Assembly: GCA_944323685.1 (NCBI GenBank)
Contig: CALUTJ010000006.1
Coordinates: 1 to 64,000 of the forward strand
Direction of reading: 5' to 3'
Length of the DNA stretch: 64,000 bases
DNA from: Candidatus Gastranaerophilales bacterium
Lineage (GTDB): Bacteria > Cyanobacteriota > Vampirovibrionia > Gastranaerophilales > Gastranaerophilaceae
Notes under the pieces: model-generated
The model's database searches: none
What the model saw: only the letters and a program-made list of their open reading frames with translations
What the model was told of the DNA's origin: nothing
Made by a program: the position numbers and the translations under genes
Shown here: in pieces, positions 633 through 50,218 of the stretch
Numbering within the stretch: position 1 is the stretch's first letter
Layout: each line of letters starts with the position of its first letter

Positions 633-1481
633 TTAAATTTTGTTTTTAAAAAATTCACCAATGAGATTGTAATGTTGTGCCAGTTCAATAACTTCTGCGT
701 TTTGCGGCATCATCATTGCAATCTTTTTTGTTTGAACGAGTCTTGTTTTGTAATTATTTGTTTGACTCAGTATATCATCTTCATTACAGCCTAAAAGCTG
801 CATTTTTGCACGCATATAATATGGTATTGGCGAATGGCTTCCTTCGGGCGGAAATGCTCCGAAGAAAATGTTTTCTATGCCGAATTCTTTAAACAATTGG
901 ATTGCCGCAAGTGCTGTTTTTTTGCCTGCATTAAAATATCTTTTCGGCTCACTGTTTGCGTAACCGCCGATAATTGTCACATAATCACGGTCTCTTTGTG
1001 TCGATTCAACAATACTTTTGACCGTCTGCGGCTCAAGAACACCGTTATAAAAAACAGGAAGCTTATTTTTGTCTATTACTTTAAACTTTATAAAAGCGAT
1101 ATAATCTTCTTTGTTAAGGTTATCAATTGCATTATCTGCATTAACGCACACTACCCTGTATTCTCTGCCGTGTTTAGTCAGGGCTAAAATAGCGTTTATA
1201 TCCTTTTTTATGTTTTTGTCGTAAACCTTTAACGTTGCGAGAATTGCTGTATTGTCATTAACAAGGTCTTTGGGTTTTAGTTGTTGAATAAAAGAAGTAA
1301 CTGGGGAATATGTGATTTTGTTGGCTTGAAGAATGTTTTTTATCGATTCTTTATCTACCCACATTTTCTGTAAGGAGAAATCACCTTTAAAGCTTATATC
1401 TTTATTTGTTTTGTTTGCAGAAGATGCTTTGTAATCAAAACTATGCATAAGCATGCCTGCGTTAAGTTTAGATATGTGCAT
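633..1481 (-). CDS. FKG-motif protein with GNAT-like C-terminal half
   Basis: 282-aa protein I do not recognise as a whole. Residues about 27-33 carry the ISFKG motif shared with several other hypothetical proteins in this window, after a polar N-terminus that does not look like a signal peptide. The C-terminal half has a pattern resembling an acetyltransferase fold: an A-G-K-K-T-A-L-A helix start, a following strand (IENIFFGAF) and P-Y-Y-M-R-A-K-M-Q-L-L-G where GNATs have Y-Y-x-x-x-G-F. The GNAT reading is weak because the acetyl-CoA loop is not canonical. RBS AAAGGAA precedes the ATG. Convergent with trxA and divergent from the RiPP-like locus. Confidence 0.7.
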   Translation of the reverse strand: MHISKLNAGMLMHSFDYKASSANKTNKDISFKGDFSLQKMWVDKESIKNILQANKITYSPVTSFIQQLKPKDLVNDNTAILATLKVYDKNIKKDINAILALTKHGREYRVVCVNADNAIDNLNKEDYIAFIKFKVIDKNKLPVFYNGVLEPQTVKSIVESTQRDRDYVTIIGGYANSEPKRYFNAGKKTALAAIQLFKEFGIENIFFGAFPPEGSHSPIPYYMRAKMQLLGCNEDDILSQTNNYKTRLVQTKKIAMMMPQNAEVIELAQHYNLIGEFFKNKI

Positions 1482-3317: not shown

Positions 3318-6167
3318 TTATTTTTTTATTGCCTGTTCTTTGTTTGGAACCTGTGTCTGTGCAATAGTCTGTATTTGCGTTTGAGCTTGAGGTGTACGCT
3401 GTGACAGAACTTTTTTGCCGGTTAATCTGGACATAAACCTGAAGAAATCACCAAGCAGACCTTTTCTTGTTACGTTGTTATACTCATTTTCAAGTATTTC
3501 GTCTCTGGTTTGAGGCGTTACAGACATACCTATAGCTTTTCTGTTTACATATTCACCTACGAGAGTCGATGCTGTGTTAACGGCCTGAGCACCGAACAAG
3601 CTTGAGTTATAAAGGTTTCTGAAGGTGTTGTTAAACAGTGATATAAACATTACATTGTAGAACTGTCTTGAAGTTTCCTGAACTGCTCTTTCTTTAGCTT
3701 TTAATACAGCACCTTTCTTGTTTTCACCGTTTGATTTTTGCATAACCATGTTGTGGTTGTCAGTCATCAAGAACCATGCCGTAGCCGCAGTAGAAGTGTT
3801 TTTGGCAAGAGCCGAAAGATCCGAGTTGGAAAGGCTCGACATTGTTGCGGTGTTAAAGCCTTTGTTAAACTGCAGGTTCATATATTTTGCAAAATCTTCT
3901 TTGTTGTAATCAATTTTTGCAATACCCTGATGCGGTCCAAACATCGGCGGCAGTTTTATTATAGGATCTTTAGTCATTCTCTTAACAGCCTGGGCAACCA
4001 TTTCGGTTTCTTTAGGCCATTGCGGAAGTTTTACGTCCGGTTTTATTAATTTTGAAATCGGTTTTGCAATATGTTTGTATGGAAGTGTAATTGTGCCCCA
4101 TATAAACTTGAAGGGTTCTGCAATAAAGTCGGCAAATTCTTTCACAATTGGTATGCGTTTTCTGCCTAACGAAAGCATATCCGCATTAACTGAATTTTCT
4201 ACAGTATCAGCAAATCTTTGTGCTTCCTGAGGATTAATTTTTCTTAGTGCACTTATTGCTTTTTCAAAGAGTTTTAGATTTTCTGCGCCGGAATCTACTT
4301 TGAATCTGTTTTCAAAAGTAAACGCATAATCTTTTGCAATATCGTTGATAAGTTTTTTGGCTTTAGTGTAGTTTTTGCCGATAATATTGCCGTTATTATC
4401 AAGAATAAGTGATTTTATTTGATTTGCTTGTTCTTCAAGATTATTAGCCTTCATTGTTTCGAAGAGTTCATTGAGGTTGTCAGCTATAACCTTTTTATCT
4501 CTGGAAGAAATAAAAGCAGCTGCATCGTTGTAAACACCGATGTTTCTGAAGGAGTTATTCTGTTTTAAGTTTGAAATGTGTTCAAAACTTTTTGCGTAAT
4601 CTTCCAATCCTGCGTCTTTTAGTACAGTAGAAAATTCTTTGGAAATGGAATTAACTTTATTAGTTTTTTGCTGGTTTTGAATAACCCTTTCAAAATAGCT
4701 GCCTACAACTTCATCGTATTCTTTCAGCTTGTTTATAACTTTATTGTAATCGTGTTTAGAAATCTTATAATCAACTGTGGTCAAAGAGTTAAAGGCTTTG
4801 TCGTATTTGCTTGAAAGAACTTTGAAGTAATCATTTATTTTGATATTTTTAGCAACTTTCAAACCTTTTGCGGATTTAAGCGCAAATCCCAAAGCAATTG
4901 TGCCGACAAACCATTTAGCCAGTGAAGAGAAGGTAAGCAGTGGTTTTGACTCGTTAACCGCTTTTAATTTTTCATCAATAGATTTACCTGACATGTTAAC
5001 ACTGCTCATCTGTGCTAAAGGCATATCTGCCATTGCAAAGCTGCGAAATACTTTAGAACCTTTAAAGGTCGGGATATAAGCTGCTGTTTTATCATCGGTC
5101 TTATTGTCTGCCGGCGGCTGATAATCTGCTGGGAGAAGGCCTTCTTTTTTGTTCATTTCAATGGCTTCTTCCTTGCTTATCATGTGTATTTTTTTACCGT
5201 TTGATAATCTTGAGAACGCTTCGGTAATAAGTACGCTCAACGCCGTTACACCGACAAAAGTAGCCTTGCTCTTGTTAATCCATTTAGAAAGAGCTCCAAG
5301 GGTAATCAACTGTAAGTACGCGTTTGAAAGAACACGTTTGGTTTCCTGATTAAAACGGAGTTTTCTTTCTTTATCAGCCTTTTGCGGATCATCATCACAT
5401 AATCTGGAAAGGTTGTAGGCATCATTAGCAAGGAAATATGCAGGGATAAAGCCTGTGACAATTCTTGTTAAGGCTCTTTCATGCACTGCGTTGTAATTGC
5501 CTGATTTAGGGTCGAACATTTTTAAAGCGTTCGACATCAAACCGGCAGAACGAACTTTGTCGGAATCGTGTTTGTATTTTTGAGCAGATTCCATATAACC
5601 GATAAAAGAATTGACAATATCAGCGTTATCAAGCGAGTTTAACTTTTTCTTTAAAAAGTTCCGGTTAGCACTGTCAACTGTTTGTTGCGCTGTTTTTGCG
5701 GCATTTTTACCGGAAAAAGAAGTTTTTAACGATTTAAAAATACGAAAAGGAATTTCCGTAATCGGGGCGGCCATTGCATCAAGCAATTGTTTAGTCCAGT
5801 TTTTCTCTTTTATAACAACTGTACTGTCGTTTTGAGCTTTAACAATGTGTTGTGCAATTTCTCTCCATTCGCTTGTGTTTGCTTCAAGCTCAACAGGCGC
5901 CTTGCCGATATATTTTTCAAGCATCTTTAAACTGTCAACAAGGTTATATTTGTGCTCGTTGTACAAAGCAAAAGATTTTTTTAGCTTATCAGCCGATATC
6001 CCTTTAAAAGAAACGCCTTTAAAGGAAGAATTAGCTGACTCTCTCATTAAAGGCGTTTGTTTATTATAATAATTATTCTTAGAAAGTTTATCTTTTGCCA
6101 CAAAAGATTTTGGCTTGTGGCTAAGGTGATCTCGTTTTATAATGTTCGGTTTTTGATTTACTATCAT
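3318..6167 (-). CDS. very large FKG-motif protein, lineage-specific hypothetical
   Basis: 949-aa protein from the start chosen here, the ATG preceded by AGGGCAGG; an upstream in-frame ATG at 6218 would add 17 residues. Around residue 50 it has a doubled motif, SSFKGVSFKGI. It lacks a signal peptide but has several hydrophobic stretches: near IVTGFIPAYFLAN, ATFVGVTALSVLI, KWFVGTIALGFAL, and a C-terminal ATAAWFLM. Between them are long Lys/Asn-rich, probably helical segments. The C-terminus is Gln/Thr-rich (QTQIQTIAQTQ). No catalytic motif is visible. It may be a membrane-associated or secreted protein; I cannot assign a function. Confidence 0.75.
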   Translation of the reverse strand: MIVNQKPNIIKRDHLSHKPKSFVAKDKLSKNNYYNKQTPLMRESANSSFKGVSFKGISADKLKKSFALYNEHKYNLVDSLKMLEKYIGKAPVELEANTSEWREIAQHIVKAQNDSTVVIKEKNWTKQLLDAMAAPITEIPFRIFKSLKTSFSGKNAAKTAQQTVDSANRNFLKKKLNSLDNADIVNSFIGYMESAQKYKHDSDKVRSAGLMSNALKMFDPKSGNYNAVHERALTRIVTGFIPAYFLANDAYNLSRLCDDDPQKADKERKLRFNQETKRVLSNAYLQLITLGALSKWINKSKATFVGVTALSVLITEAFSRLSNGKKIHMISKEEAIEMNKKEGLLPADYQPPADNKTDDKTAAYIPTFKGSKVFRSFAMADMPLAQMSSVNMSGKSIDEKLKAVNESKPLLTFSSLAKWFVGTIALGFALKSAKGLKVAKNIKINDYFKVLSSKYDKAFNSLTTVDYKISKHDYNKVINKLKEYDEVVGSYFERVIQNQQKTNKVNSISKEFSTVLKDAGLEDYAKSFEHISNLKQNNSFRNIGVYNDAAAFISSRDKKVIADNLNELFETMKANNLEEQANQIKSLILDNNGNIIGKNYTKAKKLINDIAKDYAFTFENRFKVDSGAENLKLFEKAISALRKINPQEAQRFADTVENSVNADMLSLGRKRIPIVKEFADFIAEPFKFIWGTITLPYKHIAKPISKLIKPDVKLPQWPKETEMVAQAVKRMTKDPIIKLPPMFGPHQGIAKIDYNKEDFAKYMNLQFNKGFNTATMSSLSNSDLSALAKNTSTAATAWFLMTDNHNMVMQKSNGENKKGAVLKAKERAVQETSRQFYNVMFISLFNNTFRNLYNSSLFGAQAVNTASTLVGEYVNRKAIGMSVTPQTRDEILENEYNNVTRKGLLGDFFRFMSRLTGKKVLSQRTPQAQTQIQTIAQTQVPNKEQAIKK

Positions 6168-6218
6168 TTTTCCTGCCCTTATGTACTTTCGCATAAGAAT
6201 GAAGGTTTTGCAATCCAT

Positions 6219-6636
6219 TATAAAAAATTTTTAACTTATTTTAATAATGTCGTCGAAACCCGACAACAGCTTTAAGTTTGTGCAGAATTTTTTTTGCTAT
6301 ATTAACTTCACAATGCAACATATTGTAACAAAAATTGCCGTTTAAAAACGAATAAAAGGCTGTTGGGATAATTTATATCTAATCTAGTATCACTGTTGCC
6401 GCCTCAAGCCTTCGAGCCGTCACTGCTCACCTTTGCCTTCTTTTTCGGCTGAACTGTGGTAAAGCCTGAAAAATGGCTTCACTATGTGAACAATGTGACA
6501 CTCCAAAAATTCGTTCACGTCGCTTTGCTCCTTATCACAAATTATTCTCGGAGAATATAAATATTATCAACAAAAAATTTTTTGTAATGGCAAAAAATTT
6601 TTATTTTATGTTTTATTCCTGCAAAAGGATTTTTAT
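6219..6636. other. intergenic region holding repeat copy 1
   Basis: 418 nt between divergent genes. It contains one copy of the 177-nt interspersed repeat (6377-6553) flanked by AT-rich DNA with probable promoters for both neighbours. No coding sequence is supported. Confidence 0.6.
6377..6553 (+). repeat. 177-nt interspersed repeat, copy 1 (most diverged)
   Basis: Starts ATCTAATCTAG and ends TTCTCGGAG. Same length as copies at 36703-36879 and 45897-46073, with 11 mismatches to the former by hand count. Some changes disrupt its hairpin arms (GTAAAGCC against GGCTTCAC, and the AAAAATTCGT/ACGAATTTTT stem), so this copy looks older or decaying. Confidence 0.9.
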
Positions 6637-36702: not shown

Positions 36703-36879
36703 ATCTAATCTAGTGTCGCAGTTGCCGCCTCGAGCCTTCGAGCCGTCACTGCTCACCTTTGCCTTCTTTTTCGGCTGAACTGTGGTGAAGCCTGAAAAAT
36801 GGCTTCACTATGTGAACAATGTGTCACTCCAAAAATTCGTTCACGTCGTTTTGCTACTTATCACGAATTTTTCTCGGAC
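36703..36879 (+). repeat. 177-nt interspersed repeat, copy 2
   Basis: Begins ATCTAATCTAGTGTCGCAG and ends TTTCTCGGAC. Contains three stems: CTCGA-GCCT-TCGAG; GTGAAGCC / GGCTTCAC (8 bp, 8-nt loop); and AAAAATTCGT / ACGAATTTTT (10 bp, 22-nt loop). Six mismatches to copy 3 by hand count. The ends are not inverted repeats. Confidence 0.95.
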
Positions 36880-36882
36880 TAT

Positions 36883-42051: not shown

Positions 42052-45000
42052 ATGGAACACAAAAATAAATTCATAAAATCTTTATGTATCGCAGCTTTTT
42101 TAAGTATCTTATGCTTACCGCAAATAAATTCAAAAGCAATGGCACAAGCACCTGTACCTACTTTAGATAGACTTAATCAGGAAGGTGCAACTATGCCTGA
42201 CTCTAGTGAAGTCTACCCCGAGTCTGCATATACCTTAACTGAAATCGAAAACGCAGACCCTGAAAACCTGCCTCAAAACGCAATAACCATTTATGACAAA
42301 ACAGAGGTGATAAAATACTATGACCCTCAAACAGGTCAGGAAGTCGCAGTGGATGACAGACTTCCCGATGTTCAGTATAAAGAAGTCACAACAATACAAA
42401 CAACACCAAAGTACTATACGGTAAACCTCAAAGACTCTATAACAAACATAGGTGAAGGTGACTCAACAAAATACTTTGAATGGTCACAAAACGCAGACGG
42501 CAGACTTGAATTAAAAGAAGTATCAGCACCCACAGAAGGTAAAAATACTATTACCGTAAAATACGACACATCTAGTCTGCTACAAAGAATCCCAAACGAC
42601 GCTGACAAATCATCAACAAATATTTCAGGCACATTTGTAAACCAGACCACAGGCAGCACATCTGGTAATCAATACGGCGGCGCTATATATAATAACGGAA
42701 CAAACGCAAAACTCGGTGATATCAATGCTGACTTCATCGGCAACTATGCGTCAAGTAATACTTATGTCTATGGCGGGGGGATTTATAACTATTATGGAAC
42801 AATTGGAGATGTAACAGGTGATTTTATTGGCAACTATGTATCTTCAAGTAATTCTTATGCCCAAGGCGGGGCGATTTATAACTATAGGGGATCAATCGGA
42901 GATATAACAGGTGACTTTATCGGCAACTATGCGTCTTCAACTGGTTCTAATGCCTATGGCGGGGCGATTTATAACTATTATGGAACAATTGGAGATGTAA
43001 CAGGTGATTTTATTGGCAACTATGTGTCAGGCAGTTATCGTGCCTATGGCGGGGCAGTTTATAATGAAAAAGGCTCAATCGGAAATATAACCGGTAATTT
43101 TATCGGCAACTATGTTAATTCACAAACTGAATCTGCCGGTGCTGCTATATACAATGCTCAAGGAACAATTGGTGATATAACAGGTGACTTTATAAACAAC
43201 ACTGCATTGTCTAATACAGTTGGAATAGGGGCAATAACTTCTACAGGTGATATCGGTAATATTACCGGCGATTTTATCGGCAACTCTATCATTCTTAAAA
43301 ATTCTGAGAACCCTTCTGCTCAAGGGGCTGCTATATCACAAATGGGACTTCCGGATTCTTTTATAAAAAGTGTGTCAGGCAGCTTTATAAACAACCACAT
43401 TGCAATTAGCGGCGAAAATATTGACGCTCAAATTATAGCACGCGGTGGTGCTATTGCCTCGACAGGCGGGGCGATAAATCAAATCAACGCTGATTTTATA
43501 AACAACTATATTGACGTCAATGTAGGTGACTCTTCTGAGGTAATTGCACAATGGATAGGCGGTGGTGCTATATTTAATGCCAATAGTAATATCGACTTTA
43601 TAAGCGGAGATTTTATAGGAAACCACGTATCAACAAACACTCAATTTAATATGGGAGCTTATGCAGGAGCCAGTTCTATGGTTAACGGCGGTGCTATTTT
43701 TAACGTGAGTAATATAGGCAGTTATGAAACTGAAAATACCTTCGAATTTCAGTATATTGGCGCTACAATAGTAAATTCTGAAACAAAAGAAACTCTTACC
43801 TACTTTGGTTTGCCCGTACCTATCGATGAACTTCAACAGGCAATAGATGAAGGTAAAAAGCTTTTGCCTACGGTTACATTTCTGACACAAGATGTAGATG
43901 CGTCTAACTGGGATACTTATGTCGAAACAATAAAACAAACCATAGAAAATGATACAACAGGTATGTATTCATATACATCTATATATGATCTTTTGGATGA
44001 GGATGCTTTTGCGCAGCTAAAAGGAGGCATAGTTAATTCAAGCTTTATAAACAACTATGTCTATGCTCCAAAAGAAACAGCTCACGGCGGGGCTATATAT
44101 ACAACTACAGATTTGCTGTTAACGGCAAAAGACGGCTATACTTCTGTTATCAAAGGCAATTATGTTGAAGATAAAGACGGCAAACGTCCGGAAGCTATAT
44201 ATGTAGATAGTCCGGTAGCCAAAATAACCTTACAGGCTTCAAATAAAGGCTCGTTTGTGGTTGATGATCAGATTAGCGGGTTTGCCGGCTATAAACTTAA
44301 GCTCGGTGGTGATGATACAGGGGTAATTAACATCAATAACGATGTAATTAATGCAAACATCAGCCTAGACAACACAAATCTTTACTTAGGTCGTGAAGAT
44401 GTCTTTAACCAATCACAATCTTTATCATTGAATTCAGGTTCAATTTATCTTAATAACCAATCAGTCGGCACAATGCACATCCCGACATTGAACCTCAACG
44501 GCAACACAAACATCTCTGTTGACGCTGACTTAGCCAATAAGTCCATGGACAGAATTACAGCGGATAACTACAATGTAACAGAAGGTGCAATGCTCAACGT
44601 TAACAACGTTGTACTCTTATCAGATGCAAAAGAAGATGTTACTAACATTCAATTTGCTGATGATGAGTTAGCTTCTAATGTCGCTTTCACAGGCGCTTCT
44701 CCAATCGCATATTCTCCTATCTGGAAATATGATGTTTCATATAATCCGGATGACGGCTTCTTCACATTTAGCAGAGGTGCATCAGCTTCAGGCGGCAATG
44801 CAAGCGATGCATTTAACCCCTCAGTTTTGGCTTCCCCCGTAGCTACTCAGGCAGGCGCTTATACAACCCAGCTTCAAACATTTAACTACGCATTCCAGCA
44901 CGCAGATACATTTATGAACATTCCGTATCTTGAACGTGTTGCTATCATTAATCAAGGCAAATACGCTTTATCTCCAACCGGTGATGCAACTGATGTAGGA

Positions 45001-45896: not shown

Positions 45897-46073
45897 ATCT
45901 AATCTAGTGTCGCAGTTGCCGCCTCGAGCCTTCGAGCCGTCACTACTCACCTTTGCCTTCTTTTTCGGCTGAACTGTGGTGAAGCCTGAAAAATGGCTTC
46001 ACTATGTGAACAAGGTGACACTCCAAAAATTCGTTCACGCCGCTTTGCTTCTTATCACGAATTTTTCTCGGAC
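45897..46073 (+). repeat. 177-nt interspersed repeat, copy 3
   Basis: Same ends, length and stem-loops as copy 2. Its left end follows the terminator T-run with no gap. Confidence 0.95.
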
Positions 46074-46178
46074 AAAATTTTATTGTTTACAATCAGTTCT
46101 TAACAAACTGGTTGATTCCTCTTGTTTGTTGTACAATATAGTAAAAGATAGAATTTAAGACTAATTGGGGAAAAATAA

Positions 46179-48775: not shown

Positions 48776-50218
48776 ATGAGCGTTAATAAAATAACAACAT
48801 ACACACCTGTTTATACAAACAGAGATTGTCCGAGAAAAATTCGTGATAAGGAGCAAAGCGACGTGAACGAATTTTTGGAGTGTCACAATGAAAAGGTGAG
48901 CAGTGACGGCTCGAAGGCTCGAGGCGGCAACTGCGACACTAGATTAGATAAAAATGCGCTTTCTTTCAAAGGCGGCAGGGCAAATATTTTAAAATATGCA
49001 CTTAGCACGAATCCGTTATATGATTCAGCGGTTTTTACCGGGAAGATTGCACGTTTCTTAAACTTAAGAAGAGGAGAGGTTGCACAATATTCGTCTAAAC
49101 TGAAAAAACACAAGATGCCTCTTTTATACAGTCTTGCTGAAAAATTCAACACAGATTCTTTTTACAATAAATTAACAGATGCGCATCAGGATAAAAAGCT
49201 TGTTTTTGATATTTACAATAAAATAAAATATCCGCAGAAAGCACATTTAAGGCTTATCAACGATACGAATTATTCTTTTGAGCAATTAAACAATATCATA
49301 GACTTAACAAATAACGCACCTGAAAAGCTTTCTCTTGCAGATAATTTGCTTTCAACTTATCCGTCTAAAAATAAATCAACGCTCGGGTATGAAGTTCTTG
49401 AAAAGTTTTTGAAAACGGATTCGTCTAAAGAAATTGCACAACATTATAACGATTACAGGCCATATATAGAGCTTAATACAAAAAATAGCTTTGTGGTTGA
49501 AGATCTTGAACAAGAAATCAAAAAAGGCTATGACAAGGCTTTTTATGCAAAAAAACTTGATATAACAAACCTTATGAGTTATGAAGGTGTTGCTTCTGCA
49601 TTGTCACCACAGTTTTTGCAAGAAAATTATAATAAATTCGGTATTGCGCTTTTAAAAAAGGCAAATATTGCATATGCAGGTAATTATAATATGCAATCAC
49701 AAAACATATCAGACTTGCAAAAAGAGCTTGCTTTTATGTATAAAAGCACAACTGCCGGCAACATGAATATCAGAAGCCTTATTCTAAACTTTGTTGAAAC
49801 AAAATTTGGTCTGAATGACAAATTTCAAAAAGCGCCTTTAAAATCAATTAACAAGGTATTTGAGGTAATTGACAAAGATAAAGAGGCACAAAAGTTTGTA
49901 TATAACTCATTAAAAGCACAAATGCCGTTTGAATCTGTTGAACAGATTGTCCGAACTCTTGAAAGCGCTGATTTGAAAAAGCTTAACAGCAGAATGGATC
50001 TGGTTGAATATGCACTATTAAATAAAATGAATCTTGATGAACTTTCAAAATGCGAATTTTCCGAACTTGACAAACATTTAAAACGTAAAAATCGCAGAAT
50101 GAAAAGGGAACTTGAAAAATCGTATTGCCCGCCCAATCCTTTTGCAGCTGATATTCACAATCTGAAAGTAAAATTTAACGGATTTATAGACAGACTTCGT
50201 GATAAATTTAATAAATAA
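48776..50218 (+). CDS. FKG-motif protein with repeat-encoded N-terminal segment
   Basis: 480-aa hypothetical protein. The ATG chosen has CGAGG upstream; a TTG at 48734 is in frame but lacks one. Residues ~18-58 are encoded by an inverted, internally deleted copy of the 177-nt repeat. The FKG motif (A-L-S-F-K-G-G) follows directly at about residues 61-67. The remainder is Lys/Asn/Leu-rich and apparently all-helical, with no signal peptide or transmembrane helix, ending in a basic segment (KHLKRKNRRMKRELEK). The repeat-derived segment is Cys-, Arg- and Gly-rich, unlike the rest. Function unknown. Confidence 0.75.
   Translation: MSVNKITTYTPVYTNRDCPRKIRDKEQSDVNEFLECHNEKVSSDGSKARGGNCDTRLDKNALSFKGGRANILKYALSTNPLYDSAVFTGKIARFLNLRRGEVAQYSSKLKKHKMPLLYSLAEKFNTDSFYNKLTDAHQDKKLVFDIYNKIKYPQKAHLRLINDTNYSFEQLNNIIDLTNNAPEKLSLADNLLSTYPSKNKSTLGYEVLEKFLKTDSSKEIAQHYNDYRPYIELNTKNSFVVEDLEQEIKKGYDKAFYAKKLDITNLMSYEGVASALSPQFLQENYNKFGIALLKKANIAYAGNYNMQSQNISDLQKELAFMYKSTTAGNMNIRSLILNFVETKFGLNDKFQKAPLKSINKVFEVIDKDKEAQKFVYNSLKAQMPFESVEQIVRTLESADLKKLNSRMDLVEYALLNKMNLDELSKCEFSELDKHLKRKNRRMKRELEKSYCPPNPFAADIHNLKVKFNGFIDRLRDKFNK
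48828..48949 (-). repeat. interspersed repeat, copy 4: 122 nt, inside a coding sequence
   Basis: Inverted relative to copies 1-3. Both ends are intact (GTCCGAG... to ...AGATTAGAT), but 55 nt are missing in the middle, including the GTGAAGCC/GGCTTCAC hairpin. The surrounding reading frame passes through it without a stop. Confidence 0.93.

Follow-up and report, generated by a model that had tools for sequence, protein, structure and literature searches.

How does an interspersed repeat that is closed by stop codons elsewhere in the same DNA come to be read through as protein, and is the resulting peptide of use to the protein that carries it? This question is raised by an open reading frame in the window, a 64,000-nt stretch of a 2.3-Mb draft genome of Candidatus Gastranaerophilales, which encodes a 480-residue protein with an FKG motif near its N-terminus. 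A first-pass annotation had described a full-length repeat copy that entered this gene and then lost 55 nt, restoring the frame, with exaptation or tolerated disruption as the outcome. Our analysis favors a different history. We consider it very probable that the segment is a copy of a structured repeat of Gastranaerophilales that is small, mobile and non-autonomous, and that the gene preserves the surviving landing of a compact copy that was already open rather than one repaired afterwards.

A repeat search of the window returned three direct copies and one inverted copy, the two halves of the latter meeting near positions 48887-48890. The inverted copy lies within the N-terminal coding region of the FKG gene, as had been noted, and measures 123 nt rather than the 122 nt first given. 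The host frame is open from end to end, without an internal stop, and the element contributes exactly 41 residues ahead of the FKG motif, where about 41 had been estimated. The direct copies, each 178 nt long, are closed in the corresponding frame by the TGA of GAGCAGTGACGG. The copy at 45897 also has a TAG immediately preceding that TGA, while the copy at 36703 additionally has the earlier TAG already reported and one more TGA. The inverted copy does lack 55 nt and does read on through AAG-GTG-AGC-AGT-GAC; this absence is not, however, particular to the FKG copy. The gene downstream of the 45897 copy is one that we take, from its translation, to be gyrB-like. The window also holds a seven-copy tandem array (42706-43289, spacing 84-93 nt) that reads as protein repeats of the GDITGDFIGNY type.

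Features of the FKG locus and of the repeat copies in the 64,000-nt window
Feature	Position	Strand	Basis
FKG-motif protein gene with element; helical throughout past residue 80 (predicted)	48776..50218	+	ORF, 9 full-length orthologues without insert, AlphaFold2 model
Compact (123-nt) element, translation CPRKIRDKEQSDVNEFLECHNEKVSSDGSKARGGNCDTRLD (residues 18-58)	48827..48949	+	repeat borders, copy census
Hairpin 1, outer stem 48835-48844 with 48867-48876	48835..48876	+	RNAalifold, pair counts
Hairpin 2, outer stem 48895-48904 with 48930-48940	48895..48940	+	RNAalifold, pair counts
Point where long copies hold 55 extra nt, a hairpin among them	48890..48891	+	copy comparison
Long (178-nt) copy, closed in peptide frame, upstream of presumed gyrB-like gene	45897..46074	-	sequence
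Long (178-nt) copy, closed in peptide frame	36703..36880	-	sequence
Long (178-nt) copy, closed in peptide frame	6377..6554	-	sequence

The 41-residue segment is missing from all nine full-length FKG orthologues, which come from the same genus and are 27-46% identical to the window protein. These orthologues have a short N-terminus, typically MNINKI or similar, followed directly by the FKG motif, and the part of the window protein upstream of the repeat resembles it (MSVNKI against, for example, MNINKI in an orthologue). The FKG gene therefore starts upstream of the repeat, which rules out the alternative of a start downstream of it. Judged by this alignment, the segment is an addition to the FKG gene and new there. 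AlphaFold2 assigned a pLDDT below 50 to residues 1-80, the insert included, and an all-helical structure to the remainder. The peptide is close to the consensus of the repeat and lies in a region predicted to be disordered. A Pfam search with the protein yielded no family, and a Foldseek search of the PDB with its model gave no match at an E value of 0.001 or better. An [ST]FKG motif near the N-terminus is common to three otherwise different ORFs of the window, at 636-1481 (-), at 3321-6218 (-) and the FKG gene itself (+), and similar N-termini recur in several proteins of related genomes.

Across the genome, the repeat family is far above chance expectation, with 136 matches to a 26-nt core pattern and none to the reversed pattern; searches with a compact copy and with a long copy yielded dozens of places apiece. 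A census of 100 distinct complete copies, which covers part of the whole set and omits 7 of 100 listed core matches, mostly at contig ends, comprises 65 long copies (172-182 nt), 29 compact copies (113-128 nt) and 6 of other lengths. Most compact copies in the window genome lie outside genes, and compact copies are also present in other species and genera. Since the compact form is thus widely shared, the copy that entered the FKG gene most likely lacked the 55 nt on arrival and would already have been open on landing. On the simplest reading, whose polarity is inferred, the compact form came first and the long form is a compact element with an added module. Other genomes carry different hairpin modules between the same ends, with lengths of 109-411 nt. 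Large versions with the same conserved ends (L207:2501-2911, L215:2501-2816, L216:2501-2757 and L195:2501-2811) contain nested, partly tandem hairpin modules; these modules recur across copies and genomes and may be mobile themselves.

The element folds as two hairpins maintained by compensatory changes. The consensus of 20 copies aligned with MAFFT contains 25 pairs, 8 of which show compensatory changes, and the compact consensus RNA has a folding z-score of -3.4. When 35 matches that include other genera were placed in an alignment fitted to the model, 15 of the 25 pairs had changed on both sides and 97.8% of cells paired. Sliding the partners by 1-3 columns in this model-fitted alignment reduced pairing to 27-58% and covariation from 0.461 to at most 0.059. 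The hairpin positions in the table were converted by hand from alignment columns. An Rfam search identified one tRNA as the only hit in the window, and nothing above the gathering threshold in three element-rich loci.

By eye, the element ends, TGTCCGAG and CTAGATTAGAT, are non-complementary and form no terminal inverted repeats. Insertion sites are AT-rich, and 92% of 196 copies have an A at position -4. Among 49 informative copies, the left and right dinucleotides agree in 14, where 6.3 would be expected, so that a 2-nt target duplication is weakly supported. The encoded peptide is hydrophilic, starts with Cys and ends in R-L-[DEKN], and its versions in genes match non-genic copies. At four intergenic loci (L032, L039, L052 and L062), the element appears by eye to sit between inverted-repeat arms, as if within the loop of a terminator hairpin.

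The two forms differ in the frames that they offer. The compact consensus, 41 codons long, is open in one of its six frames, and the long consensus in none. Sense read-through, scored where an ORF has at least 60 flanking codons, was found for 8 of 29 compact copies, 0 of 65 long copies and 0 of 6 others (one-sided Fisher test, 3.9e-5), a difference that is partly built in because the criterion demands an open frame. All eight use the same single open frame. With internal sites only, the counts are 4/29 and 0/65 (P 0.008), and an empty-site criterion for which an open frame is not required placed four compact copies inside open sense ORFs: those of FKG, Lgt, a glycosyltransferase and a kinase-like gene (L037, G000:C5). 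The last shows what looks like a frameshift some 30 codons ahead of the element and may be a pseudogene or an assembly error. The empty-site criterion also returned L036, in an antisense frame only, the compact L060 and the long L081. We rejected L060 as a gene interior, as it has no start upstream; we also rejected L081, where the joined flanks give an ORF, but the element follows 499 codons and the next 37 codons look unlike a gene end. In the other four of the eight sense cases the element lies at a gene end, and the gene may in truth start or stop outside the element. Of these, L020 precedes a DUF3326 domain and L036 follows an ORF that we take to be GIY-YIG-like; the other two are L091 and L129. 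Among the 21 compact copies outside sense ORFs, 5 are open in the peptide frame and 16 are closed; the compact L043 and L055 are open in an antisense frame only. Of 4000 random window positions, 3207 lie in ORFs of the size used. Insertions of the element are therefore strongly depleted from genes as a whole, which would follow if most insertions are harmful or if the element favors spacers.

In-frame copies are present in further host genes: prolipoprotein diacylglyceryl transferase (Lgt) in the window genome, dihydrolipoyl dehydrogenase (Lpd) in genomes G006 and G016, a UbiA-family, MenA-like prenyltransferase in G007, and membrane glycosyltransferase-like proteins in the window genome (no family model match) and in G007 (PMT_2 below cut-off). 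The site is empty in 20/20 other Lgt orthologues, in 21/21 others for UbiA, and in 15/15 others examined for the glycosyltransferase, whose alignment used 16 of 24 retrieved loci. A DUF2142 membrane protein of G006 (L121:672-2327) holds two in-frame copies, of 55 and 41 residues, both absent from the single orthologue compared (G016). The Lpd site is empty in 19 of 21 orthologues, and the two carriers, G016 and G006 (L222 and L221), have inserts at the same place, the 55-residue variant in one species and the 41-residue variant in the other. These carriers are 97% identical to each other, and G005, whose lpd site is empty, is 95% identical to G006. At the DNA level, the net insert is 123 nt both in lpd (G006 compared with G005) and in the prenyltransferase gene (G007 compared with G015).

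The frames of FKG, Lgt, Lpd, UbiA and the glycosyltransferase are intact, with homology on both sides of the insert. With the insert in place, Lgt and Lpd still score above their NCBIfam cut-offs (192.6 vs 118.9 and 456.8 vs 408.8, respectively), each matching in two stretches. AlphaFold2 modeled Lpd residues 247-282 with very low confidence between two strands, which suggests that this region forms a loop. These sequence comparisons demonstrate that copies that are open, sense-oriented and in the right phase sit in frame in intact genes whose orthologues have empty sites. The segment is presumably translated in its host proteins.

These properties suggest the following course of events. A trans-acting enzyme would copy or move the element, which would land where the DNA is AT-rich and has an A four positions before the site. 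The compact form adds a net 123 nt, or 41 codons, and one of its six frames is open provided that a few positions are intact. Most landings in genes would be lost, since stops or frame shifts come with the long form and with many compact copies. For an open compact copy, the chance of leaving the frame intact would be roughly one in six, given orientation and phase, and its hydrophilic peptide would be tolerated where the landing is a tail or a surface loop. The FKG gene would be one survivor of such landings.

How does the landing of an open compact copy compare with other accounts of the locus? The insertion and read-through proposed initially agree with the nine orthologues, but the subsequent deletion does not fare as well. 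A long copy that lost 55 nt inside the FKG gene would fit the window alone, where the three other copies are all long and closed; beyond it, 29 of 100 complete copies are compact and mostly outside genes, other species have compact copies, and all 40 copies examined in other genomes measure 113-127 nt, although these copies, 38 of which come from outside the genus, are best model matches and hence biased to the compact form. We therefore give the deletion account a very slim chance. That the carrier genes are pseudogenes or artefacts of assembly is also very unlikely. Every genome is a draft, in most cases metagenome-assembled, and the kinase-like gene is frameshifted, but the five intact, two-sided homologous frames and the Lpd site common to two genomes argue against this explanation. 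The strong fold of the compact consensus RNA (z -3.4) could instead point to removal of the element after transcription or translation, through splicing of the RNA, through ribosomes that bypass the folded stretch or, given the initial Cys, through a mini-intein. Genic copies are, however, open and a multiple of three in length, neither of which would be needed if the element were removed, and none of the 65 long copies was found to read through a gene. An intein requires a C-terminal His-Asn and a larger domain, whereas this peptide has 41 residues and ends in R-L-[DEKN]. Removal is thus extremely improbable.

Tolerance and use of the peptide remain to be weighed, and the first-pass annotation had left both open. 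Retention of the 41 residues for a benefit to the protein is very unlikely. The insert at one Lpd site common to two species, still open in both, speaks for such retention; given the close identity of the two carriers, it may be merely recent descent. Furthermore, other orthologues do without the peptide, its sequence matches non-genic copies, and AlphaFold2 confidence is lowest at the insert in both Lpd (247-282) and FKG (1-80). With its near-consensus peptide, its predicted disorder and its absence from orthologues, the FKG segment is most likely a tolerated insertion. A broader proposal is that a family-wide element of gut Cyanobacteriota is constrained by both its fold and its one open frame, such that translatability opened gene interiors to it, 41- and 55-residue segments keep entering core enzymes, and hairpin modules are swapped or lost in place in steps of three. 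The Lpd pair with 41 and 55 residues suggests such module exchange or loss. We nevertheless regard the proposal as doubtful, since one open 41-codon frame among six is not improbable (about 0.6 by a rough hand estimate that takes codons as equally frequent) and need not be selected.

Of 192 genomes of the order searched with the model, 33 contain the element, and these represent 7 of the 45 genera. One family accounts for 32 of the 33, and the remaining match is weak (E 6.8e-5). The records of repeat-carrying genomes are mostly Candidatus Gastranaerophilales metagenome-assembled genomes, with some labeled 'uncultured bacterium' and one 'Clostridia'. No match to the element was found by blastn among phages and plasmids, nor was its exact 20-nt core found in viral contigs. 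A role for Y1 transposase as the mover was not supported: it occurs in 8 of 23 genomes of the genus and is absent from the element-rich G006, G016, G018 and G019, which have 22-24 peptide matches each. In a search for an autonomous full-length copy that covered 157 complete copies and, as orphans inspected by eye, 18 5' ends and 33 3' ends, no gene was recognised between the ends; among the orphan 3' ends, many belong to copies of other genera in which the pattern missed the 5' end. Of the features of a MITE derived from a DDE transposase, inverted ends are absent, the duplication is weak, and inspection by eye revealed no longer gene-bearing copy among the orphan ends. The genomes and loci searched thus yielded no autonomous partner or transposase for the element.

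The element resembles several known small repeats. Rickettsia palindromic elements (RPEs) are described in the relevant passages of PMC10969869 and PMC2229807 as structured repeats of ~105-150 bp that lie between genes and also in frame in conserved enzymes, to which they add a peptide segment; this fusion in frame is their hallmark. Our element likewise occurs between genes and in frame within conserved protein genes, but it consists of two separate hairpins with non-complementary ends, whereas an RPE is a palindrome with 12-bp terminal inverted repeats. It also belongs to another phylum and has interchangeable hairpin modules; it is set apart from RPEs by their description. Correia elements (NEMIS) of Neisseria, as outlined in part of PMC2229807, exist in two forms: one of 107 bp that has open frames and becomes fused to ORFs, and a closed one of 155 bp that is almost only intergenic. 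The same split between compact and long forms is seen here (8/29 vs 0/65 in sense ORFs). Correia elements differ in their 24-bp terminal inverted repeats and target duplication, which is weak at best in our element, and the extra 55 nt of the latter include a hairpin.

For ERIC/YPAL and other enterobacterial small repeats, sections of PMC2229807 report open frames fused to genes (see also PMC2759123). The element likewise joins genes, but in another lineage and at sites inside conserved enzymes, a comparison made by description rather than by sequence. It shares with REP elements, which are associated with the Y1 (RAYT) transposase and portrayed in the corresponding part of PMC3733652 as hairpin-rich, high in copy number and mainly intergenic, all three of these traits. 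It is, however, longer and enters reading frames, and its copy number does not track the presence of Y1. Lacking terminal inverted repeats and found in another phylum, the element works like an RPE or the 107-bp Correia element but is a member of neither. A search of open-licence PubMed Central for the element or for Gastranaerophilales repeats retrieved nothing relevant.

Small repeats that enter conserved genes in frame have so far been known chiefly from Rickettsia, and the pertinent passage of a 2024 review treats a comparable process elsewhere only as conceivable (PMC10969869). The present element adds a second, apparently unrelated lineage. Repeats in Gastranaerophilales genomes should accordingly not be masked blindly as non-coding. 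The family also offers clean before-and-after pairs, Lgt and Lpd among them; closely related species have an Lpd that is empty at the site or extended by 41 or 55 residues. The absorption of a new segment by a protein thus becomes directly measurable.
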